Below, piece after piece: positions 9,505 to 35,580 of a stretch of DNA of 64,000 nt. The position numbers were made by a program, and so were the translations under genes. Below the pieces are notes generated by a model. The model was not told the origin of the DNA. It saw only the letters and a program-made list of their open reading frames with translations, and did no database searches. This stretch comes from Acidimicrobiia bacterium (GTDB lineage: Bacteria > Actinomycetota > Acidimicrobiia > IMCC26256 > PALSA-610), in NCBI GenBank assembly GCA_036271555.1, contig DATBAK010000065.1, forward strand, positions 1 to 64,000, given 5' to 3'. The number at the start of each line of letters is the position of its first letter. Positions within the stretch are counted from its first letter, which is position 1.

Positions 9505-11103
9505 TTACTGCTGCTTGATGAAGACGTTTTCGAGGTTCGAACGGCACGAGCCGATCGGTGCCGTGATCGTGCCGCCGACGCGCGCCTTGTTGAACGCGAC
9601 CATGCGCGTCTGGAAGATCAGCGGAACCTCGAGGCCTTCGCTCATCACCAGACTCGACGCCTGCTGCATCGGCTGCTGGAGCGCAGCCCCGTCGAACTTG
9701 CCCGACTTCTCCGCCGTGTGCACGAGCGTCTCGATCTCGGGCCGCTTCGAACCCATCGCGCCGGCGACGAAGCCGGCCGACGTGTAGTTGCCGCCGAAGT
9801 TGTTCCAGAGCGCGGGGCCGTTGGTGAGGTCGGTGGTGACGATCGCGTCGCCCTTCTTCTGCAGGTACACCTGCGTGAGGATCGCGGTCGGTGTGACGCG
9901 CACGAGGTTCGCCTTGAAGCCCGCGGCCGCCATCTCGTTCTGGATCAGCGGCGCCATGCGCTCGAAGAGCGGGATGCCGGCGATGAGCACGAGGTCGAAC
10001 TTCACGGGCGTCGGCACACCCGCGGCCTGCAGCATCGACTTCGCCTTCGCGGGGTCGTACTTGTACTTGCCGGCGAGGCTCGCGTCGTAGCCGGCGGTGC
10101 CCTTCGGGAACAGCTGGTCCGCGATCTCGCCCTGGCCGCCGAAGACGATCGAGTTGATCTGGTTGCGATCGACCGCGTACTCGGCGGCCTGCCGCACCTT
10201 CTCGTTCGCGAACGGACCCTGGTCCATACGGAAGTGGATGGTGGCGTAGTCGAGCGACGGGCCGCTCGCGATGGCGAACTTCGACGGGTTCGCCTTCACC
10301 GCCGCGAGCTGGTCGGGTTGCAGGTCGATCATGTCGACCTGACCCGACTGCAGCGCGGTCACGGCCTGCGGCCCCGAGCCCACCTGCACGAAGTCGACGC
10401 CCGCGAGCTTGTACTTCGACGCGTCGCCGGACGTCGGGTTCTTCTCCAGCGAGAGCAGCTGGCCGGTCTCGTAGCTCTTGAGCTTGAACGGACCACCGCC
10501 GACGGGCGTCTTGTCGAGGTGCGCGATCGCGGCCGGCGAGTAGATCATGCCGTCGATGTAGGACAGCGCCCAGATCACGTCGCCGGCCTGCGGCTTGGTG
10601 AGGTGCAGCACGACCGTGGTCGCGTCGGGCGTGTCGATCGAGCCGATGACGAAGAGCGACGTACGCGTCGGGCTGAGCTTCGTGTGCAGGAGGCTCGCCT
10701 TCACCGCGGCCGAGTCCTCGGGCGTGCCGTCGGAGAACTTCAGGTTCGGCGTGAGGTGGAACGTGATCTGCAGCGGGTTGTCGACGGTCCAGCTCTGGGC
10801 GACGCCCGGCAGCATGTCGGTGTTGCTGCGGGCGAGCGTGAGCCCGTCGTAGATGAGCGAGAGCTCTTCGTTCGCGCAGTCGTTCTGCAGCTTGCCGGGG
10901 TCGAAGTTGTCGGAGAACGCGCTGTTGAGGTCGACGCCGTACTTGAGGACACCGTTGGGGTCGGGTGTGCCGCCGTTCGTCACCGCGGTGTTGTTGCCGC
11001 CGTTCGGCGCCGCACCCTTGCTGCCACTGCTGCTGCACGCCGCGAGCATGCAGAGACACACCGCCAACGTGACGAGCGACTTCGCGCGCGCCGATCCGGT
11101 CAT
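9505..11103 (-). CDS. Peptide ABC transporter substrate-binding lipoprotein
   Basis: The product has 532 residues of the SBP_bac_5 family. A lipoprotein signal peptide ends in the lipobox LAAC (Cys23), so the protein should be anchored on the outer face of the membrane. After a Gly/Asn/Ser linker come the family hallmarks NDCANEELSLIYDGLT, the domain NPLQITFHLTPNLKFSDGTP and RQAAEYAVDRNQINSIVF. It captures the peptide-like substrate for the two permeases downstream. The first gene of the operon, it has GAGGGGG five bases before the ATG at 11103. The divergence from typical DppA is too large to name a ligand. Confidence 0.93.
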   Translation of the reverse strand: MTGSARAKSLVTLAVCLCMLAACSSSGSKGAAPNGGNNTAVTNGGTPDPNGVLKYGVDLNSAFSDNFDPGKLQNDCANEELSLIYDGLTLARSNTDMLPGVAQSWTVDNPLQITFHLTPNLKFSDGTPEDSAAVKASLLHTKLSPTRTSLFVIGSIDTPDATTVVLHLTKPQAGDVIWALSYIDGMIYSPAAIAHLDKTPVGGGPFKLKSYETGQLLSLEKNPTSGDASKYKLAGVDFVQVGSGPQAVTALQSGQVDMIDLQPDQLAAVKANPSKFAIASGPSLDYATIHFRMDQGPFANEKVRQAAEYAVDRNQINSIVFGGQGEIADQLFPKGTAGYDASLAGKYKYDPAKAKSMLQAAGVPTPVKFDLVLIAGIPLFERMAPLIQNEMAAAGFKANLVRVTPTAILTQVYLQKKGDAIVTTDLTNGPALWNNFGGNYTSAGFVAGAMGSKRPEIETLVHTAEKSGKFDGAALQQPMQQASSLVMSEGLEVPLIFQTRMVAFNKARVGGTITAPIGSCRSNLENVFIKQQ

Positions 11104-11130
11104 CGCAGCCCCCTCGACCTGACACCCCTG

Positions 11131-12156
11131 TCAGGAACGACCGTACTGCCTGGCTCCGCGCGGCGCGCGTTCTCGCGCCGCGCGCCAGTGACTCGGTGAG
11201 AGCCCGCGCGCCCGCTTGAACGCGCGGCTGAACGCCTCCTCCGACTCGTACCCGACCCGACGCGCGACCGCGACGATCCCGAGCTCGGTCGTCGCGAGCA
11301 AGTCTTCGGCGAGATGCATGCGCCACTCGGTCAGGTAGCGGATGGGCGACGAACCGAGCCGTTCGCGAAAGCGTTCGTCGAGCAGTGAACGCGACACGGC
11401 CGCGTGCGACGCGAGCTCCGTCACCGTCCACTTTCTCTCGGGCGACGCGTGCAGCAACGCGAGCGCGGGCGCGAGCACCGGGTCCCGCAGCGCCGCGAGC
11501 CACCCGTGATCCGCGGCCGGCGCGGTCGCGAGGTGCGCGCGCAACACTTCCACGAGCACGAGCTCGGGCAGGCGCGTGCTGATCGGGTTCGGACTCGCGT
11601 TGCTCGGGATGCCGTGCTCCAGCGCGTAGGTGACGCTCGCCCGAACCCAGCCCGAGCCGGCGCCGTCGGGCAGCCGCACGACGAACGCGGGTGGGAACGC
11701 GCGCAGCGCGGGGTCGAACAACGGATCGGGCGAGGTGAGGTATCCGCACACGAGCTCGGTGCGCGCACCACCGCCGCCGTGGCGCAGCAACGGCAGATCG
11801 CGCCACGGCAACGGGTCGAGCAACGACTGGATCGACACGCGGTTCGCGTCGGCACGACCGCCGATGGCGTGATGATCGCCGTACGGCAGGACGATCACGT
11901 CGCCCTCGCGCGCCCAGTGCCGCGCTCCCTCCGTCGCCTCGACCCAGCACGAGCCCGCGGCAACGATGTGGAACAGGATCAGGCGGTCGGCGCCGGGATG
12001 CAGCGCGTCCGCCATCGCGAGCGGTTCCGACTCGAACTCGAACGGCTCGCTCAGCTCGGAACGGAAGAAGAGCGCGCCCTCGAGCCGGAGCTGCTCGAGC
12101 GCGGCCGCGAGCACGAGATCGTCGTCATCGCGCGGCGCGTCCACCTCGCCCACCAT
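11131..12156 (-). CDS. AraC-family transcriptional regulator with cupin sensor domain
   Basis: The product has 341 residues. The N-terminal half is an AraC_binding/cupin_6-type beta-barrel (DRLILFHIVAAGSCW and the cupin strand REGDVIVLPYGDHH, about 55-110). The C-terminal 100 residues carry two helix-turn-helix motifs: WTVTELASHAAVSRSLLDERF and, later, IVAVARRVGYESEEAFSRAFKR. The RCL of the family is visible as SPSHWRAARE. It is encoded 27 bases upstream of the transporter operon on the same strand and is divergent from a VOC gene, so either may be its target. Cupin_6 AraC regulators often control detoxification or uptake genes; the ligand is unknown. Confidence 0.9.
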   Translation of the reverse strand: MVGEVDAPRDDDDLVLAAALEQLRLEGALFFRSELSEPFEFESEPLAMADALHPGADRLILFHIVAAGSCWVEATEGARHWAREGDVIVLPYGDHHAIGGRADANRVSIQSLLDPLPWRDLPLLRHGGGGARTELVCGYLTSPDPLFDPALRAFPPAFVVRLPDGAGSGWVRASVTYALEHGIPSNASPNPISTRLPELVLVEVLRAHLATAPAADHGWLAALRDPVLAPALALLHASPERKWTVTELASHAAVSRSLLDERFRERLGSSPIRYLTEWRMHLAEDLLATTELGIVAVARRVGYESEEAFSRAFKRARGLSPSHWRAARERAPRGARQYGRS

Positions 12157-25927: not shown

Positions 25928-27052
25928 ATGAGCCGCTGGGTCGACTGGTACCGCGCGTACGACGACGCCGACGGCCCGCTCGCACGCCGGCTCGTGATCG
26001 TGCAGCACGCGGTCGCCGGCGCGCTCACGGCGGCGGCGCCGGGTCCGATCCGCGTCATCAGCTTCTGCGCGGGCGACGGCCGCGACCTGCTCGACGTCGT
26101 CGCCGACCACCCGCGCGGTGGTGACGTCACCGGTCGCCTGGTCGAGCTCGATCCCGAGCTCGCGGCACGCGCCCGCGCCGCCGCGCCGGCGGCCATCGAC
26201 GTCGTGTGCGCCGACGCGGGCTCGACGGACGCGTTCGCGGGGGCGGTACCGGCCGACCTGGTCCTCGCCTGCGGCGTGTTCGGCAACGTCACCGACGCCG
26301 ACATCGTGCGCACCGTCGAGGTGCTGCCGTCGCTGTGCGCGCCCGGCGCGACCGTCATCTGGACCCGCCATCGCCGTCCGCCCGACACGACGTCGCGCAT
26401 CCGCGAGACCTTCGCGACCGCCGGATTCGGCGAAACGGACTTCGTCGCGCCCGACGCCTTCCTCTTCGCGGTCGGCGTGCAGCGCCTCGCCGCGCCCCCG
26501 GCGCCGTTCGCGCCGGGCGTGCGGATGTTCGAGTTCGTCGGGTTCGACACGCTCACCGATCGGTGCCCCGAGTGCGGCTTCGTCTACGACCTCGAGCACG
26601 AGGCGATCGTGACCCGCCTCGTCTCCGACGCCGACGCGTTCACCGCACACCTCGGCGCACTCGACGACCACGCGGTGCGCCGCCGCCCCTCCGCCGACGT
26701 CTGGTCGCCGCTCGAGTACGCGTGCCACGTGCGCGACATGCTGCGCGTGCAGACCGACCGCGTCGACCTCGTCGCGCGCGAGCACGAGCCCGAGCTCGTC
26801 CCCATGGGACGCGACGAGCGCGCGGTCGACGAGCGCTACAACGACCAGGATCCGAGCACCGTGCACGCCGCGCTGCTCGAGGCTGCGCACGACCTCTCCG
26901 CGCGCCTCGACGATCTCGACGACGCGGGCTGGTCACGCGTCGCGATCTACAACTATCCGGTGCGGGCGCGGCGCACGATCGAGTGGATCGGCAACCACAC
27001 CGTCCACGAGCTACAGCACCACGCACACGACATCACCGAGTCGGCGAGCTAG
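25928..27052 (+). CDS. SAM methyltransferase fused to a DinB-family domain
   Basis: The product has 374 residues from the ATG at 25928; the upstream extension overlaps a divergent gene. Residues 1-200 form a class I methyltransferase, with motif I as VISFCAGDGRDLLDVV (about 42), the acidic strand end GRLVELDPELA and motif DLVLACGVFGNV. At about residue 213 CPECGFVYD begins a DinB-superfamily four-helix domain (to the end), with candidate metal-ligand His residues in EYACHVRDML and HTVHELQHHAHD. DinB-like enzymes are often mycothiol- or bacillithiol-dependent transferases or hydrolases. A fusion of the two is uncommon; the joint substrate is unknown. Confidence 0.8.
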   Translation: MSRWVDWYRAYDDADGPLARRLVIVQHAVAGALTAAAPGPIRVISFCAGDGRDLLDVVADHPRGGDVTGRLVELDPELAARARAAAPAAIDVVCADAGSTDAFAGAVPADLVLACGVFGNVTDADIVRTVEVLPSLCAPGATVIWTRHRRPPDTTSRIRETFATAGFGETDFVAPDAFLFAVGVQRLAAPPAPFAPGVRMFEFVGFDTLTDRCPECGFVYDLEHEAIVTRLVSDADAFTAHLGALDDHAVRRRPSADVWSPLEYACHVRDMLRVQTDRVDLVAREHEPELVPMGRDERAVDERYNDQDPSTVHAALLEAAHDLSARLDDLDDAGWSRVAIYNYPVRARRTIEWIGNHTVHELQHHAHDITESAS

Positions 27053-28185
27053 AGCAGCACGAGCTCCGCGACGCGTGAGAGCGGCTCGGCGACGCCGTCG
27101 GTCGCCTGCGAGATCGCGCGGGTGTCGGTCGGGGTGAGCGTGGCGTAGGACACCCATCCACTGCCCCGGCGGAACGGCGTGAGGACGTGGTCGATGTCGG
27201 TGAACCGGGCATCGATCACGTGCGGCGAGACGGCTCCGCTCGTCGGCAGCAGCGGCGCGACGGCGTCGAATGCGGCCTGCGATCCCTGCACGTTCGCGGC
27301 CACGTCGACGAGGTCGAGGTGCGAGTAGCGCTCCTCTTCGCCCGTGATCTTCGACGTCGTCACCTCGTTCAGCAGCTCCACGGCGCCGTTCGCGATCGTC
27401 GCCGGCTGCAGCGGCACCGTGCGCACGAGGTGGTCGAGCGTGGTGACGTCGGTGAGCAGCTGGCGCGCCGTCGGACCCATTGCGGTGACGTCGTTCTCGA
27501 CCCAGAGCGCACGCTCGATGCGGTGGAAGCCACTCCAGTGCCCCGCGGCGACGTCGTTCTCGCGCGCGTCGATGCGCGGGTCGAGATCACCGAAGGACTC
27601 GGCGACCGGTTCGATGCGCTCGTACGGGACTCGCGCGGCCGCGTACAACGCCTTCGCCTGCGCGATGTCGCCCCGCTCGACCGCGTCGACGAACGGCGAC
27701 GTGCGCGCGACGAGCGCGTCGGCCTGCGTGTCGAGATAGGTGCGGTAACGCGTGACCGCCTGCGCCGCCGCTTCGGCGCTGATCCCCGACTGCGCGTGAG
27801 AGACCTTCCCCGTGACGACGAGGGTCCCGGATCCCGACTGCGTCGCGCCGCCCTTGCAGAGCGTCGTGTAGTGCCCCGGCGCGAGCGTGATCGCGAACGT
27901 CTTCGACACGCCCGGTGCGACGAGCTCGGCCTCGGCGATGATGTTCGAGCCCTTGTGGATCTCGAACTCGTTGAACGCGGGGGCCGCCGTGTTCGCGACG
28001 ATGAATTTGGTCGCGCCCGCGCGGAGCGACAGCGCCCGCGGCGAGCATCCGGTGGCGACGAGGTGCACGGTGACCGTGCGGACTCGAGGGGCCGCCGCGG
28101 GCTTCGAGCCCGCCGACGAACACCCCGCGACCAGCAGGATCGCGACCGCCGCGCCGGCTCCGGCGACCCTCGAATGTGCGCGCAT
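27049..28185 (-). CDS. EfeO-like iron-uptake lipoprotein (cupredoxin + M75/imelysin domain)
   Basis: The product has 378 residues. A lipobox LVAGC sets the acylated cysteine at residue 22. An EfeO-type cupredoxin domain (about 38-130, TVHLVATGCSPRALSLRAGATKF to GHYTTLCKGG) is followed by the M75 peptidase/imelysin domain (about 145-375) with the HxxE iron motif in GHWSGFHRIERALW. EfeO captures ferrous or ferric iron and hands it to the EfeU permease with the EfeB peroxidase. Neither partner is present in the window, so this is an orphan efeO. A palindrome resembling a DtxR/IdeR iron box lies 20 bases upstream of the ATG. Confidence 0.88.
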   Translation of the reverse strand: MRAHSRVAGAGAAVAILLVAGCSSAGSKPAAAPRVRTVTVHLVATGCSPRALSLRAGATKFIVANTAAPAFNEFEIHKGSNIIAEAELVAPGVSKTFAITLAPGHYTTLCKGGATQSGSGTLVVTGKVSHAQSGISAEAAAQAVTRYRTYLDTQADALVARTSPFVDAVERGDIAQAKALYAAARVPYERIEPVAESFGDLDPRIDARENDVAAGHWSGFHRIERALWVENDVTAMGPTARQLLTDVTTLDHLVRTVPLQPATIANGAVELLNEVTTSKITGEEERYSHLDLVDVAANVQGSQAAFDAVAPLLPTSGAVSPHVIDARFTDIDHVLTPFRRGSGWVSYATLTPTDTRAISQATDGVAEPLSRVAELVLL

Positions 28186-28328: not shown

Positions 28329-31067
28329 GTGAGGGCGATTCCCGGGAACGCGGCGCGGCGCGCCGCGCTGTTGATGACACTCATCGTGATCGGCGGCGTC
28401 TTCGCGACGCTCACCGGCTCGCGCGGAGAAGCGGCGACCGGCATCACGCCGTCGCTCAAGGTGACGCCCGCGTCCGCGGGGCTCTCGAAGATCAAGCACG
28501 TCGTGATCTTCATGCAGGAGAACCACTCGTTCGACTCGTACTTCGGCACCTATCCCGGCGCCGACGGCATCCCGGTCGACGCCAACGGCAACCCGACGGT
28601 CTGCGTGAACGACCCGCAGACCGGTGAGTGCGTCTACCCGTGGCACGACACCGACGACGTGTCGAACGGTGGACCGCACGGCGAGGGTCCTGCGAACAAG
28701 GACATCGACGGCGGGAAGATGGACGGCTTCATCAAGTCCTACGAGGACGCGTTGAAGCAGTGCGAGTCGAAGCCGGGCTCACCGGATTGCGGGTTCCCGA
28801 AGCCCGAGCCCGACGTCATGTCGTACAAGACCCGCGCCGACATCCCCGAGTACTGGTCGTACGCCGACAACTACGTGTTGATGGACCACATGTTCGGCTC
28901 GGGCCGGTCGTGGTCGCTGCCCGAGCACCTGTCGCTCGTGTCGGACTGGTCGGCGCGCTGCTCCGTCCAGGGCGACCCGATGAGCTGTGAGAACGAGCTC
29001 GACGCGCCCGAGGACGCGCGCTTCGAGCCGAACCCGAACTACGCGTGGACCGACGTCACGCACCTGCTCGACCAGAGCCACGTGTCGTGGGGCTATTACG
29101 TGTTCGACGGTTCGGAGCCCGACTGCGAGGACCCCGACGACATCGGCTGCGTCCCGTTGCCGCAGTCGTACCGGACGGGTTCGATCTGGAACCCGCTGCC
29201 CTACTTCACCGACGTGGCGCAGGACGGCACGCTCGGCAACGTGCAGAGCGTCGACAACTTCGTCGCCGCCGCGCACAACGGCACGCTGCCCGCGGTGTCG
29301 TGGGTGCTGCCCACGAACTCGGTGAGCGAGCACCCGCCCGCGAAGTTGTCCGACGGCACCAAGTACATGAGCTACATGATCAACCAGCTCGAGCAGTCAC
29401 CCGACTGGGACAGCTCCGCGATCTTCCTCACCTGGGACGAGTGGGGCGGCTTCTACGACCACGTGAACCCGCCGACCATCGACGGCAACGGCCTCGGCAT
29501 CCGCGTGCCCAGCATCCTCATCTCGCCGTACGCGAAGCAGGGCTACATCGACCACGGCGTCCACAGCTTCGACAGCTACCAGAAGTTCATCGAGGACGTG
29601 TTCCTCGACGGTCAGCGGCTCGACCCGACGACCGACGGCCGTCCGGACCCGCGGCCGGTCGTGCGCGAGAACGCGCCACAGCTCTCCGACTTCACGAACG
29701 ACTTCGACTTCACGCAGGCCCCGCGGGCGCCCGAGATCATCGGCAACACGAATCCGAACGCGGTGAACCCGCCGATCCATCCGGTCGCGGCGACCATCCA
29801 TGCGTCGACGCTGCCGCAGAAACCGAAGGCGAGCGCGACGACCAAGGCGACCGCGAGCACCACCGCGGTGAACGCGCCGATCGTGCCGGCCGCGGCCGCG
29901 GCGAAGCCGCCGGACACGTCGGGCGACGCGCCCTTCACCGCGGTGCTCGACGCATCGGGAACGAGCGACAGCTCCAGCACGATCACGCGCTGGACCGTGC
30001 GCTACGGCGACGGCGCGATCAAGAAGGGCACCGGGAAACCGGGCGCGCTCACGCACGTCTACAACACGCCGGGCACGTATCACGCGAGCATCACCGTGTT
30101 CGACAAGGCGAAGACGTCGGCGGTCGCCAAGGTGGTCGTGAAGGTCACGCACGCACCGCCGCAGGTGTGGATCAGCGGGAACCAGCCGCTCGGATTCGAC
30201 GGGCTCACCGAGAAGTTCGACGCGTCCGCCAGCAGCTCGGGCAACTGGACCATCGACTTCGGCGACGGGTCGCCCGCGGTCACCGGCACCGGCAAGCCAC
30301 CCGCCGCGCTGTCGCACACGTTCACGACGGACGGGATCTACACGACGACGCTCACCGTCACCGACCCCGCGACACACCTGTCGAACGTCGCGCGCGCGAT
30401 CAGCACCGTCTCCGCGAGTCGCGCGCCGACCGCGCAGACGAAGGCCCCCGACGTCGGGCCCGACAGCGCGAACCTCGGCGCCGACCTCTGGACCAACGGC
30501 AAGGCCACCACGTTCCACTTCGAGTGGGGCACCGACCCGAACAACCTCACGAACAGCACGCAGACGCGGAGCGCGCCGAACGGCGCGAGCAGTCCCGGTC
30601 AGAAGATCACCGGGCTCAGCGCGGGCGACCAGTACTACTTCCGCATCGTCGCGACGAACGCGGTCGGCACCACCAACGGTGTCGTCCTGCCGTTCAAGAC
30701 GAACACCGGTCCGCGCGTCTTCACGATCAACACGAGCAACCTCACGCCGACCTCGGTGACGATGCACGGGCTCGTGAACACGGAGGGATCCGACACGCAG
30801 GCGTGGTTCGAGTACGGGACCAACGGCAACCTCAGCCATCAGACCGCCGCGCAGGACATCGGTTCCGTCAAGGCGAAGCTGTCCGTGACCGCCGACGTGT
30901 CGCAGCTCACGCCGGGAACCACGTACTCGTACCGGTTCGTCGCCGAGAACGGCGTCGGCCAGAGCACGTCGGATACCGAGACGTTCACGACTCCCGCGGC
31001 AAGTGGCTCGACCGCGACGGCCGACGCGGTCGCAACCGTCGCGACGCAGCACGCAACCGTCTTCTGA
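28329..31067 (+). CDS. Secreted phospholipase C/phosphoesterase with PKD and FN3-like tail
   Basis: The product has 912 residues from a GTG at 28329 (GGAGG ten bases upstream). A signal peptide covers about 1-37. The catalytic domain (about 52-470) is a PF04185 phosphoesterase of the alkaline-phosphatase superfamily: metal motif [18 protein letters not shown], then GGKMDGF, the region [15 protein letters not shown], and the second metal site [15 protein letters not shown]. These enzymes hydrolyse phosphatidylcholine or phosphate esters outside the cell. A Ala/Thr/Pro linker leads to two PKD domains (about 535-690, [11 protein letters not shown] and [11 protein letters not shown]) and two FN3-like repeats with [12 protein letters not shown] and [11 protein letters not shown]. 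The tail likely binds surfaces or substrate. Confidence 0.9.
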
Positions 31068-31199: not shown

Positions 31200-31226
31200 A
31201 TGACGACGATGATGGACGCGCCATGA
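31200..31226 (+). CDS. Possible 8-codon leader ORF coupled to the monooxygenase gene
   Basis: An ATG at 31200, 11 bases after a GGGGGG run, opens a frame of eight codons (MTTMMDAP) whose stop overlaps the ATG of the next gene as ATGA. The G-run is the only Shine-Dalgarno candidate in the area and is too far (over 30 bases) from the monooxygenase ATG. It may be a translational-coupling leader; expression is unproven. Confidence 0.3.
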   Translation: MTTMMDAP

Positions 31227-33424
31227 CGATCACCGGTGAGGAAGCACTCGGCACACCGCCGCCGCCGTCACGGCGCGGCCTGCTCGGCCAATGGCGCCTG
31301 CTGCTGACCGCGGCCGTCGCGGTCGTGGTCGTCGGGTTCGGCGTGCACTTCTGGCAGGAGTACCGCACGGTGACGTCGGCGAAGTACACGGACGTCAACT
31401 ACACCGTGCCGACCGCGCCGCACCTCGTCGCGAACTCGGGCGAGACCGTCTACCGCATCGACCCGACGCACTCGACGCTCACCTACGGCGTCGCCGAGAA
31501 GCTCTTCGGGCACACCGCGCACACCGCGCACGGCACGACGCAGGGCATCGCCGGCGACCTCGCGGTGAACGAGTCGCACCCGTCGACGAGTCGCGTCGGA
31601 AAGATCGTCGTGAACGTCGAGCAGCTGCACTCCGACAACAACCTGCGCGACGCGCGCATCCGCGCCGCGAACCTCGACTCGCACGACTACCCGCTCGTGT
31701 CCCTTTCGGTGTCGAAGCTCTCCGGTCTCCCGGCGCGCATCGAGAACGGCCACACCTACCACTTCGCGATGAGCAGTCAGCTCACGGTGAAGGGCACGTC
31801 CGCGCCGGCGAGCTGGTCGGTCGACGCGAAGGTCGAAGGCGGCAAGGTCACCGCCACCGCGATCACGCACGTGAAGCTCACGCAGTGGGGCGTCGGACCG
31901 ATCTCGATCGTCGGCCTCGTCAGCACGTCCAACGACGCGACGCTCACGATGAAGCTGACCGCGCTCGACCCGTCGAAGTTCACGATCCCGGACCACATCT
32001 CGCCGCCCGTGACCGCGTCGCACCCGAACGACAGCCCGTCGTTCAAGAACGTCGTCATGCCGATCCTGCGCGCGAACTGCGCGTCCTGCCACCAGCCGGG
32101 CCAGATCGGTGCGTCGCAGTGGACGCTCAGCAGTGCCCGCGACGCGGCCGCGGTCTCCGACGGCATCGGCGCGGTCGTCCACGCGAAGTACATGCCGCCG
32201 TGGCCGGCCTCGACGCTCGGTGTCCCACTCGCGCACTCGAAGCAGTTGAGCAGCACGCAGATCGACGAGATCGTGAAGTGGGCCGACGCCGGCGGTCCGC
32301 TCGACGTGCCCGCGTCGACGCGCATCACGCCGACGCTGAACCCGACCACCGTCCGCCCGCGCGCCGACGTGACCCTGCAGATGAACCCGGCGTACGCCGG
32401 CTCGCTCAGCAACGCGAACGACTACCGCTGCTTCGTGCTCGACCCGCACTTCACGAAGCCGACGTACGTCACCGGCTACGGGGTCACGCCCGGTCACCTC
32501 ACCGAGATCCACCACGCCCAGATCTTCCACATCGACGCGGCGCAGGCCGCGCAGGGCAAGGAACGATCGGGCTCCGACGGCAAGCCGGGGTGGAGTTGCT
32601 ACGGCGGTCCCGCGCTGGACTCGTTCGGCGGCAACCGCCTGTCGCGCACGGCGACGACGGCGCACTATCACCGCCACCGTGTGCCCGGCTTCACCGGCCA
32701 GCCCGGCCTGATCGCGGGCTGGGTCCCGGGTCAGGACCCGACGGTCTACCCGGACGGCTCCGGCATCCTCATGGAGCCCGGCGACGCGCTCGTGCTCCAG
32801 ATCCACTACCACTACAGCGCGACGCCGATCCCCGACCGCACGACGGTCACGTTGCAGACCGCGCCCGGGACGTCGAAGGTCAAGCCGATCGACATCATCA
32901 ACCCGATCGCGCCGGTGGAGATCCCGTGCATGCCCGGCGCAACCGCGCGGCTGTGCGACCGCACCAACGCGATCCAGGACGACGTGCGCCTCTACGGTCC
33001 GTCGGGCGCGGGCAACGAGGCCGGGCTGCTCGCGCTGTGCGGCACGACTCCCGAGAAGCTCGCCGCCAACTTCCACGACGGCGTCGCCTCGACGACGTGC
33101 AACTACACGGTGCCGGAGTCCGGGACCATGGTCGGCGCGCTCGGGCACATGCACACGCTGGGCAAGAGCTTCCGGCTCACGCTCGATCCGGGAACCGCGC
33201 AGCAGAAGGTGCTGCTCGACATCCCGACGTGGAACTTCGACTGGCAGATGAACTACGAGTTCCAGAAGGCGATCCACGTGACCGCGGGCCAGACGATCCA
33301 GATGACGTGCTCGTGGGATCGCGCGCTCGACCCGAACCGGCCGCAGAAGTACATCGTGTTCGCGGAGGGAACCGAGGACGAGATGTGCTTCGGGACCTAC
33401 GCGATCATCCCCGACAAGTACTGA
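31223..33424 (+). CDS. YceI + cytochrome c + copper type II (PHM-like) monooxygenase fusion
   Basis: The product has 733 residues anchored by one N-terminal helix (about 24-42) with the rest outside. A YceI lipocalin-like domain covers about 75-250 (VYRIDPTHSTLTYGV, GKIVVNV, LTVKGTS). A cytochrome c domain follows with CASCH (Cys286, Cys289, His290) and a likely axial Met324 in KYMPPWP. The last 350 residues match copper type II ascorbate-dependent monooxygenases. By motif, CuH ligands are His430, His431 and His528 (EIHHAQIFH, LQIHYHY) and CuM ligands are His642, His644 and Met721 (GHMHTLG, EDEMCFG). The family hydroxylates C-H bonds with O2. The linked haem could deliver electrons. The combination with YceI is unusual; substrate unknown. 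Confidence 0.9.
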   Translation: MTITGEEALGTPPPPSRRGLLGQWRLLLTAAVAVVVVGFGVHFWQEYRTVTSAKYTDVNYTVPTAPHLVANSGETVYRIDPTHSTLTYGVAEKLFGHTAHTAHGTTQGIAGDLAVNESHPSTSRVGKIVVNVEQLHSDNNLRDARIRAANLDSHDYPLVSLSVSKLSGLPARIENGHTYHFAMSSQLTVKGTSAPASWSVDAKVEGGKVTATAITHVKLTQWGVGPISIVGLVSTSNDATLTMKLTALDPSKFTIPDHISPPVTASHPNDSPSFKNVVMPILRANCASCHQPGQIGASQWTLSSARDAAAVSDGIGAVVHAKYMPPWPASTLGVPLAHSKQLSSTQIDEIVKWADAGGPLDVPASTRITPTLNPTTVRPRADVTLQMNPAYAGSLSNANDYRCFVLDPHFTKPTYVTGYGVTPGHLTEIHHAQIFHIDAAQAAQGKERSGSDGKPGWSCYGGPALDSFGGNRLSRTATTAHYHRHRVPGFTGQPGLIAGWVPGQDPTVYPDGSGILMEPGDALVLQIHYHYSATPIPDRTTVTLQTAPGTSKVKPIDIINPIAPVEIPCMPGATARLCDRTNAIQDDVRLYGPSGAGNEAGLLALCGTTPEKLAANFHDGVASTTCNYTVPESGTMVGALGHMHTLGKSFRLTLDPGTAQQKVLLDIPTWNFDWQMNYEFQKAIHVTAGQTIQMTCSWDRALDPNRPQKYIVFAEGTEDEMCFGTYAIIPDKY

Positions 33425-33452: not shown

Positions 33453-34145
33453 TCAGGCTGCGGACTTGCGCCGTCCCATCGCGAAGCCGGCGAGCCCGAC
33501 GAGCAACGCGACCACGCCGAGGATCAGGGCGACGAGACCGAGCGTCTTCGCGGAGTCGACGCTGCTCTTCGACGCCGTCTTGGTCGTGGTCGCCGCGGGG
33601 GTCGACGCCGTGTCGGAGCCTTCCGACGCGGTCAGGGTGAGCACGGGCGCCGGGTTCTCGGGCTCGGGCTGACCCTCGACCGAGCTCTCGATCCAGCGCA
33701 CGACGTGACCGTCGCTGTAGGTCTGGAGCGCCTTGAACTCGATCGGACCGGTTGCGTCGGGAAGGCCGACCGACACGCTGAACTGCTGGAAGTGGTCGGG
33801 CTCGATGTTGGCGCCCGTCCAGGTGACGCTCTTCACGGCCTCGGTGACCGCACCGTCGTCGGTCTGGATCGGCTTGCTCACCTTCATCGTCTCGACCGAC
33901 GACGTCCAGCCCGCGATCGGCTGCGTGAGCGCTTCCGCGATCGGGTGGTCGGTCGGGAAGAAGATCTGGATCTTCGTCGTGCTCAACGTGTCGGACTCGT
34001 CGGGCACCGTGAACGACAGCACCGCGTCGCTGCCCTTCACGGCCGTCTCCGGGCTCACCTCCACGTGCGCCCACGCGGGCGTGCCCAATCCGACGAACAC
34101 CACTCCGAGCACGAGCCCGGCCACACCAACACGTCGCAGCACCAC
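33453..34145 (-). CDS. YcnI-like (DUF1775) copper-binding membrane protein
   Basis: The product has 230 residues from a GTG at 34145 (GAGAGGGA four bases upstream); an ATG at 34187 would only lengthen the signal. A signal peptide ends AWA-H, so His27 becomes the mature N-terminus. In YcnI that His, with a Glu and a Trp, forms a mono-histidine-brace copper site. The DUF1775 domain (about 27-165) has HVEVSPETAVKGSDAVLSFTVPDE and IFFPTDHPI. A Thr/Ser linker precedes a C-terminal membrane helix (LGLVALILGVVALLVGLAGFAMG) and a basic tail. It probably binds or passes copper at the cell surface. It lies 79 bases after the anti-sigma gene on the same strand. Confidence 0.9.
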   Translation of the reverse strand: MVLRRVGVAGLVLGVVFVGLGTPAWAHVEVSPETAVKGSDAVLSFTVPDESDTLSTTKIQIFFPTDHPIAEALTQPIAGWTSSVETMKVSKPIQTDDGAVTEAVKSVTWTGANIEPDHFQQFSVSVGLPDATGPIEFKALQTYSDGHVVRWIESSVEGQPEPENPAPVLTLTASEGSDTASTPAATTTKTASKSSVDSAKTLGLVALILGVVALLVGLAGFAMGRRKSAA

Positions 34146-34224: not shown

Positions 34225-34962
34225 TCAACCGGCCCGGCGCTGCCCCTCGCCGCCGGCTCGGGCCGGCCGTTGCGGCGCGAGCCGGGCCGCGACGCCGGCC
34301 CCGGCATGCCGCCGGCGGTGACGCAGCTCGGCGCGACGGGGCACCCGCGACCGGTTCGCGGTCGTCACCGGCGACGGGGTCGCCGACGCGAGCCACGCGA
34401 GCAGCAGCCAGCCCGCCACCGCGAGCAGGTGGGGCGCCTCGTCGCCGAGGTCGGTGCGGCCGTGCGCGAGGTCGAGGGCGGCGGTGACGACGAGCAGCAC
34501 CGCGGCCGCCCCCACGAGCGCGTGCATGCCGCGCGCCCGCTCGGGCTTCCAGGCCGCGAGCACGAACCCGACGGCGAGCGCCATCGCGAACGCGCCCATC
34601 TCGTGGGCGACGTGCTCGGGCGAGCCGTGGTCACGCCCGGCGACGAGCAGCGGGAGCGCGACGACGGCCTGCGCGCTACCCACGAGCACGAGTCCGAGCC
34701 GGGCCCAGGTGAACGGCGTCGGCCGGCGCGGCGGACGGCTGTGCGCGAGCACGCCCGCGACGAGCGCGTCGGGTCGGAGCGCGGGCGGCCGGGCGAGGCC
34801 GAGGCGGGTGGTGCGCGTCACCTCGTGCGCGCGCTCCTGCCAGAGCCGGCACTCGGCGCACCCGTCGAGGTGCTCCGCGAGCGCGGCCGGGGCCACGCCT
34901 TCGACCTCGCCGTCGAGGCGGGCCGAGATCGCTTCGCGCACCTGCTCGCACCGCACGATCAC
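34225..34962 (-). CDS. Zinc-finger anti-sigma factor with multi-helix membrane domain
   Basis: The product has 245 residues. The N-terminal ZAS/zf-HC2 domain has Cys5 and the motif HLDGCAEC (His31, Cys35, Cys38), which normally holds a sigma factor inactive. About four membrane helices follow (ARLGLVLVGSAQAVVALPLL, MGAFAMALAVGFVLAAW, ALVGAAAVLLVVTAALDL, LLAVAGWLLLAWLASA). The last 45 residues are basic and low-complexity. It is divergent from the ECF sigma factor, 84 bases between starts. Divergent rather than co-directional arrangement is less common for such pairs. It precedes the ycnI-like gene, probably in one transcript. Confidence 0.8.
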   Translation of the reverse strand: MIVRCEQVREAISARLDGEVEGVAPAALAEHLDGCAECRLWQERAHEVTRTTRLGLARPPALRPDALVAGVLAHSRPPRRPTPFTWARLGLVLVGSAQAVVALPLLVAGRDHGSPEHVAHEMGAFAMALAVGFVLAAWKPERARGMHALVGAAAVLLVVTAALDLAHGRTDLGDEAPHLLAVAGWLLLAWLASATPSPVTTANRSRVPRRAELRHRRRHAGAGVAARLAPQRPARAGGEGQRRAG

Positions 34963-35046
34963 ATAGTCGACGGCGACGGCCGCGAAGTTCCCGGACGCCC
35001 GGCGGCGCCGTGCACGGGCGCGGTGATCCGCTTAGGTTTCCCGTCC

Positions 35047-35580
35047 GTGGACGAGCTGACCGAGCTGGCACTCGCGGCGCGCCGAGCCGTCCCGGGCGCG
35101 CTCGAAGAGTTCATCCGCGGGAGCTACGAGCCCGTGTGGCACCTCTGCCAGTCGCTCGTCGACCGCCAGAGCGCCGACGACCTGACGCAGGAGACGTTCG
35201 TGCGCGCCGTGCGGGCCGTGCGGCGCTTCCGCGGCGACGCCTCGGGGCGCACGTGGGTCCTCGCGATCGCGCGTCACACCTGCCTCGACGAGCTGCGCGC
35301 CCGCACGCGGTCGCGCCGGCGGACCGCGATCGCGCTCGCCGGCACCACGCCGGCCGCGCCCCCCGACCCCGCCGAGGAGGTCGGTGCACGCGACCTGCTC
35401 GCGCAGCTCGACGTCGACCGCCGCGCCGCGTTCACGCTCACGCAGCTGCTCGGGCTCAGCTACGCCGAGGCGGCCGACGTGTGCGGGTGCCCGATCGGAA
35501 CGATCCGGTCGCGCGTCGCCCGCGCGCGCGACGAGCTCATCGAGCTGCTCGGCGGCGCGCTCCCGCTCGCCGAGGGCTGA
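35047..35580 (+). CDS. ECF sigma factor
   Basis: The product has 177 residues from a GTG at 35047; the longer frame upstream is antisense to the anti-sigma gene. Region 2 is GALEEFIRGSYEPVWHLCQSLV with SADDLTQETFVRAVRAV and RTWVLAIARHTCLDELR. Region 4 is RAAFTLTQLLGLSYAEAADVCGCPIGTIRSRVARARDELIELL. Its usual partner is the divergent zinc-finger membrane protein. The neighbouring YcnI protein and copper monooxygenase suggest a copper-linked regulon, as for the SigC/CopC-type ECF groups (inference). Confidence 0.92.
   Translation: MDELTELALAARRAVPGALEEFIRGSYEPVWHLCQSLVDRQSADDLTQETFVRAVRAVRRFRGDASGRTWVLAIARHTCLDELRARTRSRRRTAIALAGTTPAAPPDPAEEVGARDLLAQLDVDRRAAFTLTQLLGLSYAEAADVCGCPIGTIRSRVARARDELIELLGGALPLAEG

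Follow-up and report, generated by a model that had tools for sequence, protein, structure and literature searches.

The window analysed here, a stretch of 64,000 nucleotides from an Acidimicrobiia bacterium, carries on its forward strand a gene whose product is confirmed as one chain joining a membrane helix, a YceI lipocalin domain, a mono-haem cytochrome c and a dicopper core of the PHM/DBH type (Table 1). PHM and DBH are the enzymes behind amidated peptide hormones and noradrenaline; in the members studied, ascorbate supplies the electrons singly. An original prediction had given the limits and strand of this membrane-anchored reading frame exactly, according to the translation, and all the haem and copper residues that it named proved to be right.

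Table 1. Positions in the window and supporting data for the gene, its domains and the residues discussed
Feature	Position	Strand	Evidence or remark
Whole gene, YceI-cytochrome c-PHM monooxygenase	31223..33424	+	733 aa, ATG start, stop 33422-33424 (translation)
Single membrane helix, residues about 24-48	31292..31366	+	Sequence RRGLLGQWRLLLTAAVAVVVVGFGVHFW, after basic N-terminus
YceI lipocalin domain, residues 75-250	31445..31972	+	Pfam PF04264; fold Z 16-17 to 1wub, 1y0g, 5ixg
Mono-haem cytochrome c segment, residues about 273-357	32039..32293	+	PF13442 in 30/31 members
CASCH haem attachment site, C286-H290	32078..32092	+	C, C and H invariant (31/31)
Met324, likely second haem ligand, YMPPW motif	32192..32194	+	M, P and P invariant (31/31)
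PHM/DBH-type dicopper monooxygenase core, residues 380-733	32360..33421	+	PF03712; Z 21.5 PHM, 20.1 human DBH
CuH ligands His430-His431 (PHM H107, H108)	32510..32515	+	60/60 identical; aligned to PHM VHH
CuH ligand His528 (PHM H172, QxHY motif)	32804..32806	+	60/60 identical; aligned to PHM VLQVHY
His530, cytochrome-linked residue beside CuH	32810..32812	+	His 42/42 cytochrome-fused, Asn 18/18 PHM-only
CuM ligands His642, His644 (PHM H242, H244)	33146..33154	+	60/60 identical
CuM ligand Met721 (PHM M314, DEMC motif)	33383..33385	+	60/60 identical; aligned to PHM DEMC

Membrane anchor, YceI domain and haem segment

The whole 733-residue protein was modelled with AlphaFold2 from an input of ten window-and-locus sequences, which gave an overall pLDDT of 71, good for the YceI and copper parts and poor for residues 286-340. 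The model places a helix at residues 19-48. This helix is a predicted signal anchor, which would leave the remainder of the chain outside the cytoplasm. It is replaced by a lipoprotein-like signal in the relatives devoid of YceI. A single-sequence homology search against solved structures found no match at E up to 1, and the alignment to these structures was made with the family profile instead.

The YceI-like domain that had been proposed at residues 75-250 is indeed present as a fold: PF04264 matches residues 77-247 (E 1.5e-15, 58.3 bits versus a Pfam cut-off of 23.7) and about 160 residues of the model could be aligned with YceI structures (VIA-align, Z 16-17). Isoprenoid-binding proteins (1wub, 2x34) are found among the relatives of this fold, and the probable ligand of the domain is a lipid or an isoprenoid quinone, serving either as a substrate or as a source of electrons. 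The mean identity to the window protein is 49% for YceI, 52% for the cytochrome and 50% for the copper core; where YceI is present it matches the cytochrome and the core in conservation, which means that it is in use. The haem segment follows directly, at a nearly fixed spacing of 36-40 residues in 25 of 26 members. Of note, a further YceI gene of the same genome (L002, G000:C73:31366-32037) encodes a paralogue that has a membrane helix and in which neither cytochrome nor copper core was matched.

The haem segment taken in the window protein alone scores below the PF13442 cut-off (E 0.0015, 19.2 bits versus 27), and the same profile is matched at E up to 0.01 by 30 of the 31 family members. 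Across these 31 aligned sequences, which share 33-64% identity, C286, C289, H290 and M324 are invariant. The CxxCH motif lies 38 residues from Met324 in 30 members and 39 in the remaining one, and the distance from this methionine to the HH pair of the copper core is 104-108 residues in 30/31. Such conservation is consistent with Met324 as the likely second haem ligand. Low confidence was obtained for this segment within the full-chain model, and a pLDDT of 82 when it was predicted alone. Its structural matches are weak, the best being the PccH cytochrome (Z 5.0), followed by hydrazine synthase (Z 4.6), in a list from which the absence of a given cytochrome does not exclude it. Foldseek returned as top match the X183 domain 8q1v, with a non-significant E of 1.5. 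The putative identification as a cytochrome is based on the motif, the profile and the invariance, not on the fold.

The copper core and the residues that vary with the cytochrome

The C-terminal part of the dicopper core is recognised by PF03712 (residues 618-723, 28.1 bits, above the cut-off of 23). PF01082 is below its cut-off in the window protein alone (residues 401-530, 17.2 bits versus 30) and is matched at E up to 0.01 by 22 of the 31 family members. Comparisons of the model with solved structures using VIA-align gave Z 21.5 for PHM (6ala, 2.8 Å over 259 residues) and Z 20.1 for human DBH (4zel, 271 residues). In the profile alignment, the VHH, QxHY and DEMC motifs fall on those of rat PHM. 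A set of 60 copper cores was compared, 18 of which lack the cytochrome: the six copper ligands (HH, H, HxH and M) are invariant in all of them, as in the 31 aligned sequences, and so are eight cysteines and the glutamines Q526 and Q675, which correspond to the second-shell residues Q170 and Q272 of PHM. The superposition on solved PHM and the ligand invariance suggest that the copper ligands lie close together in the modelled core rather than far apart. By homology, the core chemistry would be a copper-dependent hydroxylation that uses O2 and two electrons.

The substrate side of the core is different. In PHM, the peptide carboxylate is held by R240, N316 and Y318. The window protein has Leu, Phe and Thr at the corresponding positions 640, 723 and 725, the family shows L/M, F/Y and T/S, and none of the family carries Arg, Asn and Tyr at these three respective positions. 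Since these residues are replaced while the copper machinery is kept, the protein is not an amidating enzyme, and peptide amidation was discarded as a direct reading.

The sharpest difference near the copper between the cores with and without cytochrome is seen at position 530. In the AlphaFold2 model, His530 and the CuH ligand His528 sit two residues apart on a strand, and should therefore face the same side. Because it is histidine in every cytochrome-fused sequence and asparagine in every core-only one, His530 is a candidate for a haem-copper contact, or for an additional ligand, where electrons enter at CuH. W670, W674, W698, R402, R700 and E566 behave similarly between the two clades. The covariation of His530 with the cytochrome sits on one split of the tree and could reflect lineage history; it is a lead, not a proof.

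Distribution of the family and gene surroundings

A scan of public genomes retrieved eight other contigs encoding the whole protein at 48-63% identity, all from Acidimicrobiia or unplaced Actinomycetota, together with one contig with cytochrome and copper core only. The full fusion is also encoded in the complete genome of Aquihabitans sp. G128 (L007). Many more relatives were found among 395 genomes of the same class. After removal of duplicates, the architectures amount to 30 YceI-cytochrome-core, 12 cytochrome-core and 18 core-only sequences; L019 was counted among the YceI-bearing forms, given its full-length alignment. The domain order recurs in the 30 distinct Acidimicrobiia sequences. 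Eight independent contigs of the first scan alone carry the whole arrangement in the same order and at full length, which led us to reject a chance reading frame or a mis-assembled fusion. A sample of 396 genomes of the phylum yielded 14 Acidimicrobiia beside the window's own genome and one short copper-core fragment outside the class; within Actinomycetota, the family is essentially specific to Acidimicrobiia in this sample. A viral or plasmid origin was also rejected: no relative was found in viral contigs, and the plasmid collection gave one match, to the PHM part only, in an 11.9 Mb record of Nonomuraea.

In the tree, a branch with 100/100 support separates the core-only forms from the cytochrome-fused forms. 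The forms devoid of YceI nest inside the cytochrome clade, so YceI has probably been lost (or gained) more than once. Two core-only paralogues also lie close together in one genome (L097 5085-6251 and 7093-8244, G102). In the open-licence literature, no account was found of a PHM core fused to either cytochrome c or YceI. Sequence databases hold other bacterial proteins that pair a cytochrome c with a PHM-type copper core, and the fusion is for this reason not called categorically new.

No conserved operon was detected in about 40 neighbourhoods, where only generic ABC and SDR-like clusters recur, nor any conserved partner gene that would mark the donor or the substrate. In the window, the stop of the monooxygenase gene is followed after 29 bases by the end of a convergent gene for a YcnI-type protein (33453-34124, minus strand; DUF1775, E 1.2e-45), a member of a copper-related family. 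Other family members lie beside a heavy-metal P-type ATPase (L041) or a DUF326 protein (L043), and a core-only gene beside a CopC/CopD fusion and a YcnI gene (L098:5813-9718). These copper-gene neighbourhoods are circumstantial, as they were inspected after the fact. Just past the YcnI gene are a zinc-finger anti-sigma factor (34225-34962, minus strand) and a divergent ECF-type sigma factor (34990-35577, plus strand), possibly a copper- or envelope-stress regulon. On the other side, a phospholipase C-like phosphoesterase gene (28374-31067, plus strand; PF04185), which also encodes PKD and fibronectin-like domains, ends some 155 bases upstream and is not conserved beside other family members; it is preceded by a gene for an EfeO-like protein with cupredoxin and imelysin (M75) domains (27049-28185, minus strand), probably for iron uptake. 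Another locus (L050:8828-13665) shows two tandem YceI-cytochrome-PHM copies flanking a small membrane-anchored cupredoxin-like gene (10948-11367). Its product gave no match to a Pfam cupredoxin and is a possible electron donor.

As regards haem maturation, two adjacent Cytochrom_C_asm genes with sizes fitting CcmC and CcmF were found in the window's genome, and ResB was not. System II was accordingly set aside, these genes fitting System I instead, and haem attachment outside the membrane appears feasible.

Electron supply, substrate and known systems

The reading that we favour, and consider fairly probable, is that of an exported, membrane-anchored dicopper monooxygenase of PHM/DBH fold, in which the c-type haem of the same chain would replace ascorbate as the immediate donor. 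The N-terminal helix would take the chain across the membrane, where Ccm would attach haem at the CASCH site. The haem could then be reduced by an outside respiratory cytochrome or cupredoxin, or by a quinol held in the YceI barrel. Single electrons would pass from the haem to CuH near His528/His530, and from CuH to CuM as in PHM, a step suggested by the conserved ligands and by the His/Asn switch at position 530. CuM would finally activate O2 and, by homology, hydroxylate a C-H bond of a substrate other than peptidyl-glycine, while YceI would bind an isoprenoid-type molecule, acting as a substrate presenter or as a quinone redox store.

That a covalent haem could take the place of the soluble donor was an idea of the original prediction. 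It is probably right, and agrees with the retention of the cytochrome in 42 sequences and with His530 tracking it, although this tracking sits on one clade split. Against a donor in cis stand the weakly modelled haem segment, the possible lineage history behind His530, the lack of a conserved gene partner pointing to donor or substrate, and the PHM-only relatives, in which the core exists without a fused haem. The description of the enzyme as self-contained was overstated. With one haem and two coppers, the chain can store three electrons, and sustained turnover therefore needs re-reduction from outside it.

The role of YceI is where the readings diverge. According to the first alternative, which we regard as possible though rather unlikely as a whole, YceI is an electron source and not a substrate holder: a reduced isoprenoid quinone, taken from the membrane and bound there, feeds the haem, and then the coppers. 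Ubiquinone-8 is carried in YceI structures and by purified YceI proteins, a genetic link between YceI and cytochrome b561 exists in Gram-negative bacteria, and LcoA has been proposed as the reducer of BcnA-bound quinone (reviewed in PMC9113575). The chain of Cbp2D, with YceI and c-type cytochromes, is a proposed LPMO donor (PMC8981238), and the position of the haem segment right after YceI, at a near-constant distance, fits such a transfer. However, the 12 relatives that keep cytochrome and core lack YceI, which is thus not essential to the chemistry of the family, as a donor or otherwise. A more specific and more doubtful version is a route from membrane quinol in the YceI barrel to the c-haem and, via His530, to CuH, which would run PHM chemistry on the respiratory quinone pool in place of ascorbate.

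The original prediction favoured instead a hydroxylase to which YceI brings a lipid or quinone substrate, handing an isoprenoid or lipid to CuM; we hold this to be a tentative proposal with a similarly low probability. The isoprenoid-binding relatives of the fold are in its favour, and the replacement of the peptide-carboxylate residues by L/M, F/Y and T/S fits a less polar substrate. But the copper core is the same in the 12 cytochrome-fused relatives without YceI, and the apolar replacements (L640, F/Y723) are mostly shared by them, which means that the pocket stays alike whether or not YceI is present; moreover, no lipid-pathway gene is conserved in the neighbourhoods. The Cbp2D and BcnA/LcoA precedents (PMC8981238, PMC9113575) point at least equally to a quinone-based redox partner, and a quinone-holding YceI is as plausible as substrate delivery in view of Cbp2D and of the links of YceI with ubiquinone-8 and cytochrome b561. 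On the whole, the interpretation given in that prediction is partly supported.

It is very unlikely that the protein is a copper- or haem-dependent envelope scavenger of oxygen radicals or lipid peroxides, with the PHM core as a redox sink and not a hydroxylase. The YceI protein BcnA does protect against lipid peroxidation (PMC9113575) and no substrate pathway is conserved in the neighbourhoods, but the catalytic copper set is fully conserved, Met721 and Q526/Q675 among it, which is more in keeping with O2 activation at CuM than with a simple sink. About as improbable is a cytochrome left over for structural or sensory purposes next to a core served by a small reductant such as ascorbate. Known PHM does run on ascorbate (PMC6123673) and there are PHM-only relatives, but the haem ligands are invariant in 31/31 sequences, down to 33% identity, and no member with a cytochrome was found to have a degenerate CxxCH.

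With the favoured donor in cis, a natural covalent-haem fusion would provide a single-electron donor that can be followed optically and is held in place beside the two coppers. Each copper of PHM takes one electron from ascorbate and the two coppers are about 11 Å apart (PMC6123673); the route of the second electron to CuM over this distance would become directly testable. The haem-fused core would also offer a bacterial solution without ascorbate.

Compared with PHM, the window protein has the same fold, the six copper ligands, the equivalents of Q170/Q272 and the HxH and DEMC motifs. It differs by its low identity (17%), by the replacement of R240, N316 and Y318, by its fusion to c-haem and YceI, by its N-terminal membrane anchor and by the absence of a lyase domain. 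Human DBH shares the copper core and the presence of an N-terminal beta-sandwich domain before it, but this domain is a DOMON, in contrast to the YceI and cytochrome c of the window protein. DBH uses ascorbate, which is recycled by a separate cytochrome b561.

On the side of the donor module, BcnA/LcoA resembles the window protein by the pairing of a YceI lipocalin with a cytochrome, but consists of two separate proteins with a b-type cytochrome, has no copper enzyme and serves in lipid peroxide defence (PMC9113575). Cbp2D and the X158-X183 proteins of cellulose degraders unite a YceI-like domain with c-type haem domains in a single exported polypeptide, and the c-type domain X183 of Cbp2D reduces copper LPMOs (PMC8981238). 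The target of Cbp2D is a separate LPMO, whereas the window protein has its PHM-type copper enzyme in the same chain and no carbohydrate-binding module. The combination of YceI and cytochrome may thus be a donor module that copper oxygenases have used repeatedly, acting on LPMOs in trans and on a PHM core in cis.
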